Origin: Deltaproteobacteria bacterium
Lineage (GTDB): Bacteria; Myxococcota_A; UBA9160; UBA6930
Assembly: GCA_029261795.1 (NCBI GenBank)
Contig: JAJDAP010000122.1
Span: forward strand, 1-64,000
Direction of reading: 5' to 3'
Length of the DNA stretch: 64,000 nt
In this document: positions 27,122 to 35,049 of the stretch, one piece after another
Layout: every line of letters starts with the position of its first letter
How positions within the stretch are numbered: position 1 is the stretch's first letter
Notes under the pieces: generated by a model
Database searches by the model: none
What the model was told of the DNA's origin: nothing
Seen by the model: only the letters and a program-made list of their open reading frames with translations
Translations under genes and position numbers: made by a program

Positions 27122-27405
27122 CGGTCTTTTCCCTTCGCGTTCGAGGACGACCGCGAGAGGTTCGGCAGATTGCTCCACATCCTCTGGTTTCCCGCGGCTG
27201 GCCTCTCGGTTCGCCAGAGCTTCACCCACCTGGGTGTGTTGCCCAAAACTGAATACCGGTTCGAAATTCAGTTCATGGTTCAGAGCGCTCGCTGGCCCGC
27301 CAGGCGGCGCCCTACGGGGGCGGGTCGATCCAGTTCTTCGCCCTCCTCGAAAAGTGGCGCGCCGACGGAGCTTTCGAGGGTCTCGAGTTCGACGCCGGGA
27401 ACTAA
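27122..27405. other. Gap holding a possible gene tail
   Basis: This 280-base gap has no full gene. On the plus strand, 27286-27405 reads coding-like in one frame: AAPYGGGSIQFFALLEKW, then RADGAFEGLEFDAGN and TAA at 27403. The frame is open only from 27253 and has no good start. It could be the tail of a lost gene, but I do not recognise the family. It overlaps the AST operon end by four bases. Confidence 0.25.
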
Positions 27406-28727
27406 CCGTTCTGGTAGACGGACCCGATGCCGAGGAGGGCCGTCGCGGCATCCACGGCCGCGCGGGATTCCTCGATCAAGGACGGATCCGCGAGGTCGGC
27501 GGGCTCCAATCGCTCGCGGTAGTGGCGATCGATGAGGGCCGCGAGTCTCGCGTGCAAGTGCTCGTCGTAGCGCATGCCGCTTGGGAGAGCTTCCGCTTCG
27601 CTGTCGGTGAGGACGACGCGGAGGCGCAGACATGCGGGGCCGCCACCGTTGCGCATGCTTTCGCGTAGATCGACGAAGTGAAGCGACTCGAAGGTTCCGT
27701 CGGCTCGCAACTCCTCGAGCAGGCGGCTGGTGCCTGGATGCTCCTGGCATTCCCGTGGGCCGATCCAGGCCGTGCCGCCTGAGGCGGTTTCGACCATCTG
27801 GCAGTTGAACAAGTACGTGGCCACGGCGTCCGCCAATGAGAGCCGCTCCCGCTCGACGACGATGAGGCGCAGCTCGCCGTCACACGCCTTTCGAAACCGC
27901 TCGCGAATCACGTCGAGATCCGCTGCTCCGTTCCTGAAGGCATCTTCGTGGACGACCAGCAGGCTGCGATCGCCGCTGGCGATGACGTCGTTGTGGAAGA
28001 CGCCGGCGTCGATCGCGACCGGGTTCTGTTGCAGAAGCAACGCACGACCCGGAGCCAGGCGGTGTTGGCTCGCGAGCTGACGGCTCGCCGCTTCTTCCTG
28101 ACGCGCGTGATGAAGCCGCGGGCCCTGGGCTCCGCGCTCGGCTTGGCCGAACACGAACAATTCCAGGCCCGGTGTGCCGTGTTCGGAGCAGAGCCGAATC
28201 TGGTTCGCGGCTCCCTCGTCTCCCGCGATGCTGAGCGCAGGGTGATGCACGAAGTACGCCCGGTCCGGCAGGGCCGCCCGAAGCGCCGCAGCCGTGAAGG
28301 GGGTTTCAAGTGCACGGTGAGGCTCTCGGCTCAAATTCGCCGGCGTCACGTGCACGCGGCAGTCCGTCGTATCGGCGGAGGGCGAGACGCTCGCGGCGTT
28401 GGCCGCCCACATACAGGAGGCGCTGTAGACGCTGGCCAGAAGCTGCGGTGCATCTCGGGCGGCCCGCTCGACCATCTGGGCATCGCTGCCGTCGAAGCCG
28501 TGATCGCGCAACGGGCCCCACACGGGTCGTGGCTGGGGTGGGAGTACCAGCTGGGGAACCCCGAGCGCGTGAAGTGTCGCCATTCGCTCGAGGCCCTGGT
28601 GTGCGGCTGCGCGAGGGCGAGAGGCATTTCCGCCGTGGCGTTCCGAGGCGAGATTTCCGGGCGACAACCCTGCGTAGTTGTGGGTCGGCCCGACCAATGA
28701 AGCGAACTCGAACTCCCGCGCGTTCAC
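27402..28727 (-). CDS. astB: N-succinylarginine dihydrolase
   Basis: AstB splits N2-succinylarginine to N2-succinylornithine, two ammonia and CO2, the second step of the AST route. The protein has 441 residues (E. coli 447). The start is FASLVGPTHNYAGLSPGN. The catalytic triad is visible: Glu171 in SIAGDEGAANQ, His245 in VFHNDVIASGD and Cys366 in SMRNGGGPACLRLRV, matching E. coli Glu174, His248 and Cys365. The GTG start at 28727 overlaps the astD stop as GTGA, so translation is probably coupled. It is the last gene of the five-gene operon. Confidence 0.97.
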   Translation of the reverse strand: MNAREFEFASLVGPTHNYAGLSPGNLASERHGGNASRPRAAAHQGLERMATLHALGVPQLVLPPQPRPVWGPLRDHGFDGSDAQMVERAARDAPQLLASVYSASCMWAANAASVSPSADTTDCRVHVTPANLSREPHRALETPFTAAALRAALPDRAYFVHHPALSIAGDEGAANQIRLCSEHGTPGLELFVFGQAERGAQGPRLHHARQEEAASRQLASQHRLAPGRALLLQQNPVAIDAGVFHNDVIASGDRSLLVVHEDAFRNGAADLDVIRERFRKACDGELRLIVVERERLSLADAVATYLFNCQMVETASGGTAWIGPRECQEHPGTSRLLEELRADGTFESLHFVDLRESMRNGGGPACLRLRVVLTDSEAEALPSGMRYDEHLHARLAALIDRHYRERLEPADLADPSLIEESRAAVDAATALLGIGSVYQNG

Positions 28728-30202
28728 ACCTTCACCATTTCGACCACACCGGGCGGCAGGTTCGCGGGGGCCTCGAGACGTGCGGCCTCGAGGGACGCGA
28801 TCGGATCGCTGCAGTAGTCGACGGCCCAACCTCCCGCCGGTCGATGGTTGCCGCTACGGCCGACGCCACCGAAGGCGAGTCGACCGCTGGCGCCGGTGGT
28901 CTGGCGGTTCCAATTGACCACGCCAGCGCGGACTTCCCGCCAGAATCGCTCGAAGGATGCACGGTCATCGGAGAAGAGGCCTGCGGCGAGTCCGTAGGCC
29001 GTCCGGTTGGCTTCCTCGATGGCCGCGTCGAAATCCGGCACGCGGACGATCTGGAGGAGAGGGCCGAAGAGCTCCGTGTCGCCGCGCTCCGGGAGCCCGG
29101 TCACGTCGATCAGGCCCGGGTGGAGAAGCGCCGGACTGCGCGGGTCCGAGCGGAGCGGAACCACACACGAGGCGCCTCGCTGGAGCAGCCTCTCGTACTC
29201 GCCTAGCAAGTTCGCGGCGGCTTCCGCCGAGATCAGCGGGCCCACGAACGGTTCCGGCCGATCGGCGGGCAGGCCCACGCGAAGCGAGCCCATCGCCGTC
29301 GCCAGCGCATCGATGAAGCGATCGCCGGCCTCCCCTTCGGGCACGATCAATCGTCGCGCACAGGTGCAGCGCTGACCCGCCGTGATGAACGCCGAGAGGA
29401 TCGTGTGCAGGACGGCAGCCGCGCGATCCTCGACCGATTCGACGACGAGGGGGTTGTTGCCACCCATCTCGAGGGCCACCAACAATTCGGGACGCTCTAC
29501 GACGGCGCGCTGAATGGCGCTTCCACCGGCATAGCTTCCCGTGAAGAGGATCCCGTCGATGCCAGGCTGCGAAACCAATGACGCGCCGGTCTCGCGTCCT
29601 CCCTGGACGAGCTGAAGTACGCCAGCCGGAAGCCCGGCGTCTTCGAAACGTGCGACGAGCCGTGCGCCTACCACTGGAGTCAGTTCGCTCGGCTTCAACA
29701 CCACGCTGTTTCCGGCGAGCAGCGCCGGGACGATATGTCCGTTCGGGAGGTGGCCGGGCAGGTTGAACGGGCCCAGCACGGCCATCACGCCGATGGGCCG
29801 AAAGCGGGTGCGGGCCTCGGCCCCGGCCATCTCGAGGCGTTCCTCGCTGCGACGCTCGGCGGCGAGTTCGATCGAGAGGCCGACCTTGCCGATCATGGCA
29901 TCGAGCTCGGTCAGTGCCTCCCAGAGCGGCTTGCCGGTCTCGCGCGAGATCAGCTCGGCGAAGGCCTGGCGATCTTCCCTGAGCCGTTCGGCATAGGCAT
30001 GAAGAATCGCCACGCGCTCTGCCTCGGGCAAGGCCGACCAGGGAGACAAGGCGCTTCGAGCCCCTTCCACGGCGGCCTCGACCTGACGCGCCGAGGCGGC
30101 CCGAAGTTCGGCCAGCGTTTCGCCGGTCGCCGGATTCAGCGACGAGAAGCCGGCTCCCTCACCGCGCAGCCAATCTGCACCGATCCGCTGCTCGCCCCTC
30201 AC
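28724..30202 (-). CDS. astD: N-succinylglutamate 5-semialdehyde dehydrogenase
   Basis: AstD oxidises succinylglutamate semialdehyde to succinylglutamate with NAD, step four of AST. From GTG 30202 the protein has 492 residues, the same length as E. coli AstD. Catalytic residues are Asn147 (GPFNLPGHLPNGH), Glu245 (ALEMGGNNP) and Cys279 (TAGQRCTCARRL). GPFNLPGHLPNGHIVPAL and FTGSYAGG are typical of this ALDH subfamily. The GTG start overlaps the astA stop as GTGA. An open frame runs further upstream, but it lies inside astA. Confidence 0.97.
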   Translation of the reverse strand: MRGEQRIGADWLRGEGAGFSSLNPATGETLAELRAASARQVEAAVEGARSALSPWSALPEAERVAILHAYAERLREDRQAFAELISRETGKPLWEALTELDAMIGKVGLSIELAAERRSEERLEMAGAEARTRFRPIGVMAVLGPFNLPGHLPNGHIVPALLAGNSVVLKPSELTPVVGARLVARFEDAGLPAGVLQLVQGGRETGASLVSQPGIDGILFTGSYAGGSAIQRAVVERPELLVALEMGGNNPLVVESVEDRAAAVLHTILSAFITAGQRCTCARRLIVPEGEAGDRFIDALATAMGSLRVGLPADRPEPFVGPLISAEAAANLLGEYERLLQRGASCVVPLRSDPRSPALLHPGLIDVTGLPERGDTELFGPLLQIVRVPDFDAAIEEANRTAYGLAAGLFSDDRASFERFWREVRAGVVNWNRQTTGASGRLAFGGVGRSGNHRPAGGWAVDYCSDPIASLEAARLEAPANLPPGVVEMVKV

Positions 30203-31263
30203 CGGGCCAGGTTCCCGGGCCCAGGACGAAGGCGCGCAATGCGCACCTCGTCGCCACGCTTGAGTTCGAGCCGATCGGCCAGCTCCGGCGTGAGGCTGAC
30301 GCCAGCGTCGACCTGCCGGAGCGGCGCCTTTCCCGCGCGGAACGTCAGCCCGCCACGGCGCGCAACGAGCCACTCCTCGGACAGGGGGTCGTCGGGCTCG
30401 CGGCCACCACGGGAGACCTCCTCGACGCCGACGACCTTGGCGATCCGGCTCTCGCGCACGGTTCGGATTTCATCCCGAGGGCAGCGAACCACCGGACCGG
30501 CTTCGAAGATGTCGACCATTCCCGAATCGCTGAAACCCTCGCTTTCGAGCAGGCGGAGCGCCGGCGCCGTGTTGGCGTGCACCTCGCCGATCACGGCCTG
30601 GGCTTCTGGCGGCAGCAACGGGATGTAGATGGGATGGGTCGGCATCAGGTCCGCAATGAAACCCTTGTCCTCGATGCTGAGGTAGTCGGCGGTCGGGAAA
30701 TCGACATCGAAGAAGTGTCTGCCGAGTGCTTCCCAGAATGGCGAGCGGCCGGCGTCGTCGATCACCCCACGCATTTCGGCGATCACCATCGGATCGAAGG
30801 CGTCGGGGCATTCGGCGATCAGCAGGAACCGCGCGAGCGAGAGCAAGCGCCCATTGCCCCCACGCCGTGCATCCGGCGCGAGGAACAGGCTGCCGATCTC
30901 GCAGGGGCCATCGTGCTCGGCGACCAGGTGGAGGGCGCGCACTTCCTTGCGAATCTGGAGCTGCTCCGATTCGTGGACGCGCGTCTCGATTTGATAGGCG
31001 TAGAAGGGCTCGAAGCCGCCGACCTTCGGGACGATTCCGCTGGTGCCGACCACGCTTCCGGCCTCGTCCTCCGCAACCAGCAGGTACGTGTCGCCGGGTT
31101 CGGGTTCGTTCATCCCCCGGGCGAAGGTTCGCTCGGAAGCCCGGATCCGGCGCTCCAGGATCTTCTCGTCACTCGGGAGCGTGGTCAGGCCGTAGGCGGT
31201 GAGCTGGCTCAACGCGAAGAGCGCATCGAGATCGGATTCGCGGACGGGTCGCAGCACAATCAT
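30199..31263 (-). CDS. astA: Arginine N-succinyltransferase
   Basis: AstA transfers succinyl from succinyl-CoA to arginine, the committed step. The product is 354 residues from ATG 31263 (E. coli 344). LRPVRESDLDALFALSQL is the GNAT-fold start and GLTTLPSDEKILERRI follows. CEIGSLFLAPDARRGGNGRLLSLARF carries the CoA loop, read here in pieces, and EMRGVIDDAGRSPFWEALGRHFF is the family hallmark region. It ends in a 35-residue basic tail (LKRGDEVRIARLRPG) after the GNAT core. It starts one base after the aminotransferase stop. Confidence 0.96.
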   Translation of the reverse strand: MIVLRPVRESDLDALFALSQLTAYGLTTLPSDEKILERRIRASERTFARGMNEPEPGDTYLLVAEDEAGSVVGTSGIVPKVGGFEPFYAYQIETRVHESEQLQIRKEVRALHLVAEHDGPCEIGSLFLAPDARRGGNGRLLSLARFLLIAECPDAFDPMVIAEMRGVIDDAGRSPFWEALGRHFFDVDFPTADYLSIEDKGFIADLMPTHPIYIPLLPPEAQAVIGEVHANTAPALRLLESEGFSDSGMVDIFEAGPVVRCPRDEIRTVRESRIAKVVGVEEVSRGGREPDDPLSEEWLVARRGGLTFRAGKAPLRQVDAGVSLTPELADRLELKRGDEVRIARLRPGPGNLAR

Positions 31264-31264
31264 G

Positions 31265-32668
31265 TCACGCCGTCCTCGCCGCGACACGAGCCAGGCTCTT
31301 CTCGAGAATGTCGAGCACCGCGTCGATTTCGTCGTCGCGAATCACACCGACCGGCGGCAGGAAGCGGAGCCGCGCCAACGGCCCGCCGGTCGCGAAGGCG
31401 ATGACGCCGTGGGTGAAGAGATCGTCGAGCAGGGCTCGGGTGGTTTCGCGCTCGCCCTCGAAGGGCGTGAATGCCAGCATCGCACCGAGCCCATACGGGC
31501 CGCGGACCCAGTCGCCATGGCGGGCTCGGATCGTTTCGAACCCCTCGATGAAGCGGCGGGAAACCTGCGCGACCCGGCCGTCCTCGCCGAACAGATCCCC
31601 GGCGGCGAACCGGGAAATGACATGACAACCGACCGCGATCGCCGTGCTCGCGCCGGTAAACGTCTGACTCACCAGCCCCGGCGGGGGTCGGTAACGCGCG
31701 GCGAAGAGCGTGGCGCATACCTGGCTCGTCTTCCCGACCGTGACGATGTCGGCGTAGGCATCCAGCCCGAAATGCTGGAAGGCGAAGGGCGCCAGGGTCC
31801 GGCCGAAGGTCTGGATCTCGTCGAACCAGACCGCAACGTCGTGGGCACGCAGCAGTTGTGCGATCGCCTCGAAGAACGCGGGATTCCCCGCGTGATAGCC
31901 GCCCTCGCCCTGGACGAGTTCGAGGATCATCGCGGCGTGGCGGCCCGGATGCCGCGCCAGGTGGGCGCGAAGTGCGGCCAGTGTCTCGTTCGTGCTGGCC
32001 TCGGCGTCGTCGGGCCGGAAGAACGGTACGTAGTCCACGGCCAAGGAGGTGGGCAGTCCGGCTCGGTAGGCCGGGTTGTCCGTCACCTGGGACATCGCCA
32101 GGGTGCGTCCTGCAAAGGCGCCGGAGAACGCGAGCAAGCGGTCGGCGGGGCGATGTTGGTGGAACGCGAGCTTCAGCGCGTTCTCGTTGGCCATCGCACC
32201 GCTCGTCGTCAGGAAGCCATGTTCGAGGGCCGCGCCCTGTTGGTTGGCGAGGGCGAGGAGTCCTTCGACGAACTGCGCGGACTCGGCGTTCTGCTGCAGG
32301 TTGCCCTGCATTACGGTGTCGCCTAGCGCAGCGTCGAGCTGCGCCTCGGTCGTCGCCGGCGCGCCGTGCCCGAAGTAGTGGACGCCGATACCGCAGATCA
32401 TGTCGAACTTGACGCTGCCGTCCGCCAGTTCCACGAGGGCGCCGTTTCCGAAGCCGCTGCCCAGATACGGATAGAAGAGGGCACCCCCGCGCAGCGCGCC
32501 GAATCGTTCGAGCGTCGCCGCGTAGCCCGAGACGAGTTCGATCCGGGGCGGCCGTACACCTCGGAGTGTTGCGCGATGGTCGCGCGCCGCTTCCGCGAGG
32601 AGCCGGCGTGCTTCGCGTACGCGCGAATCCTGGGCGAACGCTTCGGCGCTCAGTTCGTCGTCGCTCAT
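31265..32668 (-). CDS. Class III aminotransferase in AST operon (AstC role)
   Basis: By position this enzyme should turn succinylornithine plus 2-oxoglutarate into succinylglutamate semialdehyde plus glutamate. It is 467 residues, against about 406 for AstC. It is a PLP class III enzyme: the pyridine-binding Asp283 sits in VWFDEIQTFGRT, and Lys313 sits in TVGKTSQVCATLF. AstC and ArgD have SKALGGG at the lysine instead, so this is not the usual AstC. The GKxSQVC form and the long N-terminus are closer to lysine 6-aminotransferase-like enzymes. Its ATG overlaps the M20 gene's stop as ATGA. Confidence 0.85.
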   Translation of the reverse strand: MSDDELSAEAFAQDSRVREARRLLAEAARDHRATLRGVRPPRIELVSGYAATLERFGALRGGALFYPYLGSGFGNGALVELADGSVKFDMICGIGVHYFGHGAPATTEAQLDAALGDTVMQGNLQQNAESAQFVEGLLALANQQGAALEHGFLTTSGAMANENALKLAFHQHRPADRLLAFSGAFAGRTLAMSQVTDNPAYRAGLPTSLAVDYVPFFRPDDAEASTNETLAALRAHLARHPGRHAAMILELVQGEGGYHAGNPAFFEAIAQLLRAHDVAVWFDEIQTFGRTLAPFAFQHFGLDAYADIVTVGKTSQVCATLFAARYRPPPGLVSQTFTGASTAIAVGCHVISRFAAGDLFGEDGRVAQVSRRFIEGFETIRARHGDWVRGPYGLGAMLAFTPFEGERETTRALLDDLFTHGVIAFATGGPLARLRFLPPVGVIRDDEIDAVLDILEKSLARVAARTA

Positions 32669-33921
32669 GGTTGGTCTCCCCCGGCGGCGAGCGGTGCGGA
32701 TGCCTCCCGAATGGCCGGCGACGCGCCGAGGGCGGCCCGCGCCAGGATCGCAGCACAGAGCTGCGCACGGGGAACCAGGCTGTCGAGCCTCAGATATTCC
32801 CGGTCGCTGTGGATCTCGCCGCCCCGGGGCCCCATCGTGTCGACGTTGGCGAGACCCGCTGCCGCGAGCTTGTTGCCATCACTCACGCCGCCGGATTCCT
32901 GCCAGCCGACGGCCACGCCTACCTCGCGGCCGGCGTGTTCGACCTCACCCATCAATCGTTCCATGGCTGCGTCCATTTCCTTGGGCGGGGATTGGAAGCC
33001 ACCCTGCAGCGCGATCTCCACTTCACAGGATCGACGCACCGCTTCGAGGCACGCTTCCAGGCGCTCCATGGCTTCCTCTTGTTGGACGCGGTCCGCGACG
33101 CGAAGGTTCAGGCGTGCCAAAGCGAAGGCGGGCACGACGTTGACCGCGCCGCCACCGCTCACGAAGCCCGTGTTCGCGATGAGGCCCGGGATCGTGTCGT
33201 TCAGCTGCGCGAACTGGTCGATCACCCGGCCGAGCGCGTGGATCGCACTTCGACCGCGATCGAACTCACGGCCCACGTGGGCGGCCCGCCCGCGAACGAC
33301 CACCGTGAAGTTGCCGGAGCCCTTGCGTTTGCAGATGAGGGTTCCGTCCGGGAGGCACGGCTCGAAGACGAGACCGAAATCTCCCTCGTTGGCGGTCTCG
33401 GCGAGAAGTGGCGCCGAGCACGGGGATCCGATCTCTTCGTCTGGGTTCAGGACGACGGTCCAGCCGAGCTGATCCTTCTGCGGCATTCGCTCGAGCGCTG
33501 CGAGCGCGGCGAGCATGACGGCAAGCCCGCCCTTTGCGTCGGCGACGCCTGGACCGCGGAGCGTGTTCTCGTCGAGCTCGCTGAGGTCCTGGAACGGGTC
33601 GTCAGCTGCGAACACGGTGTCGAGATGGATGGCGAGCACGACCCGGCGCGGCGCCCCCGGTCGGACCCGCGCCACGATCGCGTCCGCGGTCTCGAACGAA
33701 CTCGGCTCTCCGCGATCGTCCACCGAAGCGAACGCGGGCAGCGGCATCCGCGTCACCTCGGCACCCAACTCCTGTAGCGCCGCCACCGCCTGGCAAGCCA
33801 TCGCTTCGATTCCGGCGCGATGGCTACTGCCCGAGTTGATCGTCGCCCAGCGGCGAATGCGCCGCTGCATCCGCGCCTCCTGGCCCTCGATCCACTGCAT
33901 GGCCGCATCGAAGTCGCCCAC
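32665..33921 (-). CDS. M20 metallopeptidase (carboxypeptidase G2-like), possible AstE replacement
   Basis: I chose GTG 33921, after GGGGGAA, giving 418 residues; other starts run to 33957. Two zinc ligands and catalytic residues are visible: His99/Asp101 in AIHLDTVFA, Asp128 in GVADAKGG, and Glu162/Glu163 in NPDEEIGSP. A His sits in EIHSDREYLR near the C-terminus. RKGSGNFTVVVRGRAAHVG marks the dimer domain. The carboxypeptidase G2 branch removes C-terminal Glu from N-acyl glutamates. It is the first gene of the AST operon, where astE (an M14-like zinc enzyme) is missing. I infer that it desuccinylates succinylglutamate. Confidence 0.85.
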   Translation of the reverse strand: MGDFDAAMQWIEGQEARMQRRIRRWATINSGSSHRAGIEAMACQAVAALQELGAEVTRMPLPAFASVDDRGEPSSFETADAIVARVRPGAPRRVVLAIHLDTVFAADDPFQDLSELDENTLRGPGVADAKGGLAVMLAALAALERMPQKDQLGWTVVLNPDEEIGSPCSAPLLAETANEGDFGLVFEPCLPDGTLICKRKGSGNFTVVVRGRAAHVGREFDRGRSAIHALGRVIDQFAQLNDTIPGLIANTGFVSGGGAVNVVPAFALARLNLRVADRVQQEEAMERLEACLEAVRRSCEVEIALQGGFQSPPKEMDAAMERLMGEVEHAGREVGVAVGWQESGGVSDGNKLAAAGLANVDTMGPRGGEIHSDREYLRLDSLVPRAQLCAAILARAALGASPAIREASAPLAAGGDQP

Positions 33922-34006: not shown

Positions 34007-34627
34007 TCAACCAGCGGTCTCCACTGTAACGCGGGCGATGCTCGGCCGTTCCGCCAGGCGCCCGATCAGGTCGCGGATCTGGGGTTGGTCGGCCAACAAG
34101 TCGATGCCGGCGACCTTGCTGGCCAGGGTGCCCGCGAGTCCGAACGTGTAGTAGCTGTAGAGATCCGCGAGCGTGAACTCGGCGCCCAGGGCGTAGGGGT
34201 CGCAGACGTACAGGCGGGATACCGCCTTGATGCCCTGCGCCAGATCTGCCCGCACCTGCTCCTTGGTCTCATCGCTCACCGGCTTGCCGAACAGCAGCTC
34301 GGGCAGGCAGCGACGCGCGACGAGTTCGATATCCAGCTTGAGGTGACTGACCAGTTCCATGACCTTGCCCGCCGCGAACGGATCGCTCGGCAACAGAGCC
34401 GGTTCCGGCTGAAGCCGTTCCAGATACTGGAAGATCGCGAGCGACTCGGACATGTAGCGTCCGTCGACCTCGATGGAGGGCATCTTCCCCATCGGCGAGC
34501 GCTGAAGGTACTCCTCCTTCTGAGCCGGCGGGGCCTTGATCTCTTCGAACTCGAGACCCTTCTCGATGAGCAGGGCCTTGGTCAGGCTGTAGTAGTTGCT
34601 CATTCGAAGACCGTAGAGTCTGATCAT
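34007..34627 (-). CDS. Glutathione S-transferase family protein
   Basis: The product is a 206-residue soluble GST. The thioredoxin-fold half runs to about residue 80: IRLYGLRMSNYYSLTKALLIEKG, then SPMGKMPSIEVDG with the cis-Pro, and SESLAIFQYLE for the glutathione gamma-glutamyl contact. A helical half follows, with FTLADLYSYYTFGL near the usual N-cap region. It would conjugate or isomerise with glutathione. The start codon ATG 34627 overlaps the preceding isochorismatase stop as ATGA, so the two genes are coupled. Specificity unknown. Confidence 0.9.
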   Translation of the reverse strand: MIRLYGLRMSNYYSLTKALLIEKGLEFEEIKAPPAQKEEYLQRSPMGKMPSIEVDGRYMSESLAIFQYLERLQPEPALLPSDPFAAGKVMELVSHLKLDIELVARRCLPELLFGKPVSDETKEQVRADLAQGIKAVSRLYVCDPYALGAEFTLADLYSYYTFGLAGTLASKVAGIDLLADQPQIRDLIGRLAERPSIARVTVETAG

Positions 34628-35049
34628 GATCCCTCTTGTCTGTCTGGATGGTTCGCCGGCGCGTCACCGGCGCAAAGCTCCTCGATGATAGCCTCCGCCG
34701 CGACGACCCGGATCCGGCGGTGCGGATGCAGCAGCTCCTCCCAGACGTAGTGCGCCTGGGCGATGATCGATTTCGCGTCGAGATGGTCGCGGTCGCGCGT
34801 CAGGTGCCCGTCGCGCACGACGGTGACCTCGAAGTCCAGGCTCAGCGCGGCGCGGACCGTGGTATCGACGCAGAAATCCGTCGCCGACCCGGCGATGAAC
34901 AGCTCGCTGATTCTTGCGTCCTTCAGAAGCGCCTCGAGCCGTGTGACCACGCCCCCGAGATCGGGGTCCGAGCCAGGCTCCAGGAACGAGCCCACTTGCA
35001 TGTCGATCACGAGAAGTGCCACGCGTCGTGTACCCATCGGCGCCATCAT
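34624..35049 (-). CDS. Isochorismatase-like hydrolase, internally shortened
   Basis: The 141-residue product starts at ATG 35049 (others at 35046 and 35037). ALLVIDMQVGSF holds the catalytic Asp, and GSATDFCVDTTVRAALSLDF holds the nucleophile Cys. Intact members have about 180-190 residues. Between DMQVGSF and EALLK about 50-60 residues are missing, including the stretch with the catalytic Lys. The frame is kept, so an in-frame deletion is likely and the protein probably has no activity. The ending, HHR..VVAAEAIIEEL, is normal. It is coupled to the GST gene. Confidence 0.75.
   Translation of the reverse strand: MMAPMGTRRVALLVIDMQVGSFLEPGSDPDLGGVVTRLEALLKDARISELFIAGSATDFCVDTTVRAALSLDFEVTVVRDGHLTRDRDHLDAKSIIAQAHYVWEELLHPHRRIRVVAAEAIIEELCAGDAPANHPDRQEGS

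Follow-up and report, generated by a model that had tools for sequence, protein, structure and literature searches.

In Escherichia coli, the arginine succinyltransferase (AST) route of arginine degradation is encoded by the operon astCADBE, and ArgD enzymes of this organism are able to act on succinylornithine as well. The arginine/ornithine succinyltransferase of Pseudomonas has two subunits. Enzymes that remove succinyl groups are also known within the M20 family of metallo-hydrolases, DapE among them. In Bacteroides, a distant DapE relative has been proposed from genetic data to act as an N-succinylcitrulline desuccinylase (PMC7311316).

We analyzed a 64,000-nucleotide stretch of a myxococcotal draft genome (assembly GCA_029261795.1, contig JAJDAP010000122.1, hereafter the window) and compared one of its operons with these systems. 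As in astCADBE, the operon carries astA, astD, and astB in the same relative order, places an aminotransferase gene immediately before astA, and is tightly packed (Table 1). Unlike astCADBE, it lacks astE and begins with an M20 gene, and its aminotransferase (AT) does not belong to the AstC family (27% identity to E. coli AstC over the matched part). On the strength of gene context and phylogeny, we consider it likely that this is an operon for arginine degradation by the AST pathway in which an M20 enzyme serves as succinylglutamate desuccinylase and a non-orthologous enzyme as succinylornithine aminotransferase. A preliminary description of the locus had proposed five packed minus-strand genes in the order M20, AT, astA, astD, astB, joined by ATGA, a one-base gap, GTGA, and GTGA; the boundaries, order, strand, and all four junctions were found in the sequence as described. 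The M20 gene starts with GTG at 33921, in agreement with the starts of its homologues.

Table 1 Features of the ast operon in the window, and related clusters lacking astB in other Myxococcota (positions within each locus).
Feature	Position	Strand	Evidence and assignment
M20 metallo-hydrolase (NF005602/PRK07338 "hydrolase")	32665..33921	(-)	NF005602 468 bits; proposed N-succinylglutamate desuccinylase, AstE substitute
Class III aminotransferase (AT), separate ast-linked family	31265..32668	(-)	PF00202 165 bits; proposed N-succinylornithine aminotransferase, AstC substitute
astA, arginine N-succinyltransferase	30199..31263	(-)	PF04958 411 bits; TIGR03243
astD, succinylglutamate-semialdehyde dehydrogenase	28724..30202	(-)	TIGR03240 625 bits, cut-off 579
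astB, N-succinylarginine dihydrolase	27402..28727	(-)	PF04996 528 bits; NF009789
ATGA overlap, M20 stop/AT start	32665..32668	(-)	sequence
One-base gap, AT stop (31265)/astA ATG (31263)		(-)	sequence
GTGA overlap, astA stop/astD start	30199..30202	(-)	sequence
GTGA overlap, astD stop/astB start	28724..28727	(-)	sequence
AT-astA-astD + dimethylargininase/arginine-dihydrolase-like gene	L112 8317-13101		
AT-astA-astD + dimethylargininase/arginine-dihydrolase-like gene	L113 6439-11279		
AT-astA-astD + dimethylargininase/arginine-dihydrolase-like gene	L142 8072-12910		
AT-astA-astD + dimethylargininase/arginine-dihydrolase-like gene	L143 4435-9233		
AT-astA-astD + dimethylargininase/arginine-dihydrolase-like gene	L144 4535-9437		
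AT-astA-astD + dimethylargininase/arginine-dihydrolase-like gene	L145 4201-9302		
AT-astA-astD + dimethylargininase/arginine-dihydrolase-like gene	L147 4165-8994		

Curated Pfam and NCBIfam models back the assignment of astA, astD, and astB, with AstA and AstB falling under the equivalog cut-offs. AstA exceeded the subfamily model TIGR03243 (374 bits, cut-off 284) and scored below the stricter equivalog TIGR03244 (355 bits, cut-off 391), while AstB exceeded NF009789 (531 bits, cut-off 452) and scored below the equivalog TIGR03241 (494 bits, cut-off 538). All three genes are present and co-oriented, as expected of an AST operon. The flanking genes, which encode a glyoxalase-like protein, a glutathione transferase, a TonB receptor, cytochromes P450, and amidohydrolases, have no evident tie to arginine. 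An isochorismatase-like gene at 34624-35049 of the window may be shortened internally, as its best match spans only positions 102-157 of the 175 in the Pfam model.

We asked whether the canonical enzymes are encoded elsewhere in the genome, a 5.7 Mb draft in 139 contigs that is ~91% complete. It holds a single AstA and a single AstB. Searches with two AstE models (PF04952, NF003706) returned zero matches in this ~91% complete draft, which extends to the genome the absence of AstE originally noted for the operon, and AstC was not found among its class III aminotransferases; at this completeness, a distant astE or astC may have been missed. The remaining class III aminotransferases included HemL, two proteins below all listed cut-offs, and one ArgD just above its cut-off, the only bona fide ArgD of the genome and encoded on a different contig from the ast operon. 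The earlier proposal that two of the five steps have been taken over is supported: proteins belonging to neither the AstC nor the AstE family appear to occupy these steps, and neither canonical enzyme turned up in the rest of the draft genome. Among 379 Myxococcota genomes, we detected AstA in 167, AstB in 49, and AstE above the cut-off in just 1, indicating that absence of AstE is the norm in this group. The one exception (G031, contig C10, locus L120 7467-12303) belongs to the same order as the source genome and carries a canonical astA-astD-astB-astE run, the only one with AstE above the cut-off in the 379 genomes, which was possibly gained by transfer.

The M20 protein passes the curated model NF005602 (PRK07338; 468 bits, cut-off 357), which NCBI names only "hydrolase" and to which it attaches no function. 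Its nearest solved structures were the chains of carboxypeptidase G2 (CPG2), at 171 to 173 bits, with all others at or below 92. H99, D128, E163, E187, H371, and E162 of the M20 protein align with CPG2 H112, D141, E176, E200, H385, and E175, of which the first five (His, Asp, Glu, Glu, His) are the metal ligands and E175 is the general base; CPG2 His229 and Asn275 are likewise kept. This bears out the earlier placement of the enzyme with the carboxypeptidase G2 kind. The further step, from this kinship to cutting of N-acyl-glutamate, needs correction, since kinship does not by itself establish a glutamate pocket: in a low-identity alignment, CPG2 Arg324 and Lys208 are replaced by S311 and T194. 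Because these residues are not conserved, the glutamate pocket of the M20 enzyme must differ from that of CPG2, as does its operon context. Arg199 and Lys314, which are invariant in six ast-linked M20 proteins and lie near the aligned positions of Arg324 and Lys208, could take over their role. Structure predictions made from two-sequence alignments were poor (mean pLDDT 48 and 38).

The preliminary description had suggested looking in related genomes for M20 genes beside ast genes without astE, and such loci were found in Myxococcota, Sphingomonas, Novosphingobium, and Legionella. Relatives in NF005602 adjoin astA in two further Myxococcota, which belong to the same order as the source genome and to other families. 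In one (G347), M20, AT, astA, and astD run up to a contig end and an astB fragment begins another contig; in the other (G040), M20 and AT lie at one contig end and astA and astB at the start of another. The layout is not a product of chance, as these two members of other families share it. Public plasmid records place a hydrolase gene before astA-astD-astB in Legionella adelaidensis and before astA-astB in Sphingomonas parapaucimobilis; these two clusters resemble ours in their linkage to ast genes and in having no astE nearby, and differ in lacking the AT gene. A Novosphingobium plasmid record likewise has astB, astA, astD, and M20 together. In this plasmid (Novosphingobium sp. KACC 22771, locus L045 5309-11158), two AstA-family genes flank astB and are followed by astD and M20; by analogy with the Pseudomonas enzyme, the two may encode two subunits.

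The ast-linked M20 proteins of the source genome, the two further Myxococcota, Legionella, and Sphingomonas all score above the NF005602 cut-off, and phylogenetic analysis grouped these five and the Novosphingobium protein, six ast-linked M20 proteins in all, into one clade (support 100/100) apart from the unlinked M20 proteins of Myxococcota. As NF005602 adjoins astA in alphaproteobacteria and Legionella too, the exchange of AstE for M20 is wide and not peculiar to the source genome. AstE was not found in the examined loci of the other M20 carriers or in the whole genomes of the myxococcotal carriers. In the few genomes that allow a comparison, AstE and NF005602 excluded each other: the source genome, G347, G040, and the control Caulobacter vibrioides have AstA, AstB, and an NF005602 match without AstE, whereas G031 and E. 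coli have AstE without an NF005602 match (four of the control genomes had such a match, one of them above the cut-off, which may or may not be that of C. vibrioides). A check for ast links in the sister clade of M20 proteins (family f12; L049-L051, L053-L056), whose genomes all have AstA, was negative: these genes are fixed beside dnaX-ybaB-recR, neighbours unrelated to ast genes.

We next consider the AT, which was described as about 60 residues longer than AstC with TVGKTSQVC at the pyridoxal phosphate (PLP) lysine; we measured 467 residues against 406 in E. coli AstC and located the lysine at K313 of this motif. The protein shares the PF00202 family, the PLP lysine, and a DE(I/V)Q motif with AstC/ArgD, GabT/PuuE, and lysine 6-aminotransferase; around this lysine, its own family has GK-x-x-(Q/H) in place of the AKALGGG of AstC and ArgD. 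The AT passes no NCBIfam cut-off, and every named aminotransferase family was matched far below its cut-off, including AstC (TIGR03246, 93 bits, cut-off 610) and lysine 6-aminotransferase (TIGR03251, 107 bits, cut-off 521). The kinship to lysine 6-aminotransferases that the preliminary description had marked for testing did not hold: profile ranking placed PuuE (175 bits), GabT (151 bits), and ArgD (141 bits) ahead of AstC and lysine 6-aminotransferase (2cin), both at ~125 bits, and we dropped the latter as a candidate identity. In a tree whose references were E. coli AstC, ArgD, GabT, PatA, and BioA together with the paralogues of the source genome, the AT family formed a separate branch of 22 entries on a long stem (support 100/100). 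Profiles and phylogeny set the AT apart from both AstC and the lysine 6-aminotransferases, as a distinct, deep branch within class III.

The AT family occurred in 59 of the 379 Myxococcota genomes. In 40 of these, the AT gene immediately precedes astA on the same strand, and 5 to 90 bases separate the two matched stretches. These 40 genomes represent several families and two types of cluster. Four genomes (G229, G356, G054, and G056; loci L137, L138, L139, and L146) carry the AT without an adjoining AstA gene, so that a second role or a leftover is possible there.

In the second type of cluster, inspected in seven Myxococcota genomes, a gene of the guanidine-modifying superfamily comes after AT-astA-astD (Table 1). 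Like the operon in the window, these clusters place a member of the AT family immediately before an AstA-family gene, together with an astD-like gene; they differ in that AstB had no match in any of the seven genomes, that no M20 gene adjoins the cluster, leaving the last step unlinked, and that their AstA belongs to a lower-scoring branch. Two of the guanidine-modifying proteins were scanned against NCBIfam and came nearest to dimethylargininase and arginine dihydrolase, both below cut-off, and the others match these two at 66 to 72% identity. It is possible either that this protein converts arginine to ornithine, which the AstA-family enzyme would succinylate, or that it substitutes for AstB on succinylarginine. 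Both routes lead to N-succinylornithine, the would-be substrate of the AT, as the next compound. Since the AT is also found in clusters without astB, it appears to go with the succinylornithine step whichever enzyme supplies that compound, and we infer that the astB-less cluster is the strongest independent reason for placing the AT at this step.

In the pathway we propose, AstA would convert arginine and succinyl-CoA to N-succinylarginine, and AstB would convert this to N-succinylornithine with loss of two ammonia and CO2. The AT would transfer the side-chain amino group of N-succinylornithine, giving N-succinylglutamate semialdehyde, which AstD would oxidize to N-succinylglutamate, and the M20 enzyme would split N-succinylglutamate into succinate and glutamate. 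The roles of AstA, AstB, and AstD are taken from their families. For the AT and the M20 enzyme, the roles are suggested by gene context, by the lack of AstC and AstE, and by superfamily chemistry (omega-amine transamination and DapE-type desuccinylation). The AT need not be the sole enzyme at its step, because ArgD can use succinylornithine in E. coli. A broader generalization strikes us as evenly balanced: NF005602 may be a second, M20-type succinylglutamate desuccinylase that replaces AstE in alphaproteobacteria, Legionella, and some Myxococcota, and the AT family may be the succinylornithine aminotransferase of many Myxococcota, also serving an unreported route whose ornithine or succinylornithine would come from an arginine-dihydrolase-like enzyme, rather than from AstB, clustered with an AstA-family enzyme.

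Other explanations of the two unusual genes carry less weight. The M20 enzyme might act at the pathway entry, releasing arginine or its precursors as a peptidase or N-acyl-amino-acid hydrolase, with an unlinked, unrelated enzyme performing the last step. The leading position of its gene in the operon, the frequency of di- and carboxypeptidases among M20 enzymes, and the absence of the CPG2 pocket residues would all suit such a feeder, and the astB-less clusters without an adjacent M20 gene indicate that some carriers finish the pathway with unlinked enzymes. We nonetheless think this improbable, as NF005602 is present where AstE is absent and vice versa in the testable genomes, and as its link with ast genes spans three distant groups, which better fits a missing core step than an optional feeder. 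A similar doubt attaches to the AT, which could serve another omega-amine (GABA, putrescine, or ornithine itself) while ArgD handles N-succinylornithine. Its fixed place right before astA across 40 genomes, several families, and both cluster types speaks against this, as do its scores far below every named family cut-off, and we regard the idea as distinctly unlikely even though its best profile matches are the GABA aminotransferases PuuE and GabT, a genuine ArgD is present in the source genome, and AstA was not detected in the four genomes mentioned above that carry the AT apart from it.

It is likewise unlikely that there is nothing new here, that is, that the AST operon is an ordinary one and its M20 gene encodes a known hydrolase lacking a database name. 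NF005602 is indeed already curated at NCBI, and a "hydrolase" stands beside astA in public records; however, the model carries no function, the AT scores below all NCBIfam cut-offs, and a literature search, with most subscription journals outside its scope, gave no paper assigning a function to PRK07338 or describing desuccinylation by an M20 enzyme in the AST pathway. Within the same scope, no paper turned up on the AT family, on the astB-less cluster, or on an arginine dihydrolase with a succinyltransferase, and astE goes unmentioned in the GapMind catabolism paper. Because both the family and its position at the side of astA are already in public annotation, the M20 half of our proposal, that of a succinylglutamate desuccinylase, is a new assignment for a known family and not a new object.

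These assignments offer a testable function for a nameless curated NCBI family and for an aminotransferase family whose representative in this operon reaches no NCBI cut-off. Predictors for which AstC and AstE are required would score arginine degradation as interrupted in bacteria such as these Myxococcota, Caulobacter, and sphingomonads, where the pathway is probably whole. Several steps of one pathway, namely amino transfer and desuccinylation here and the dihydrolase step in relatives, appear to have been refilled from other enzyme families.
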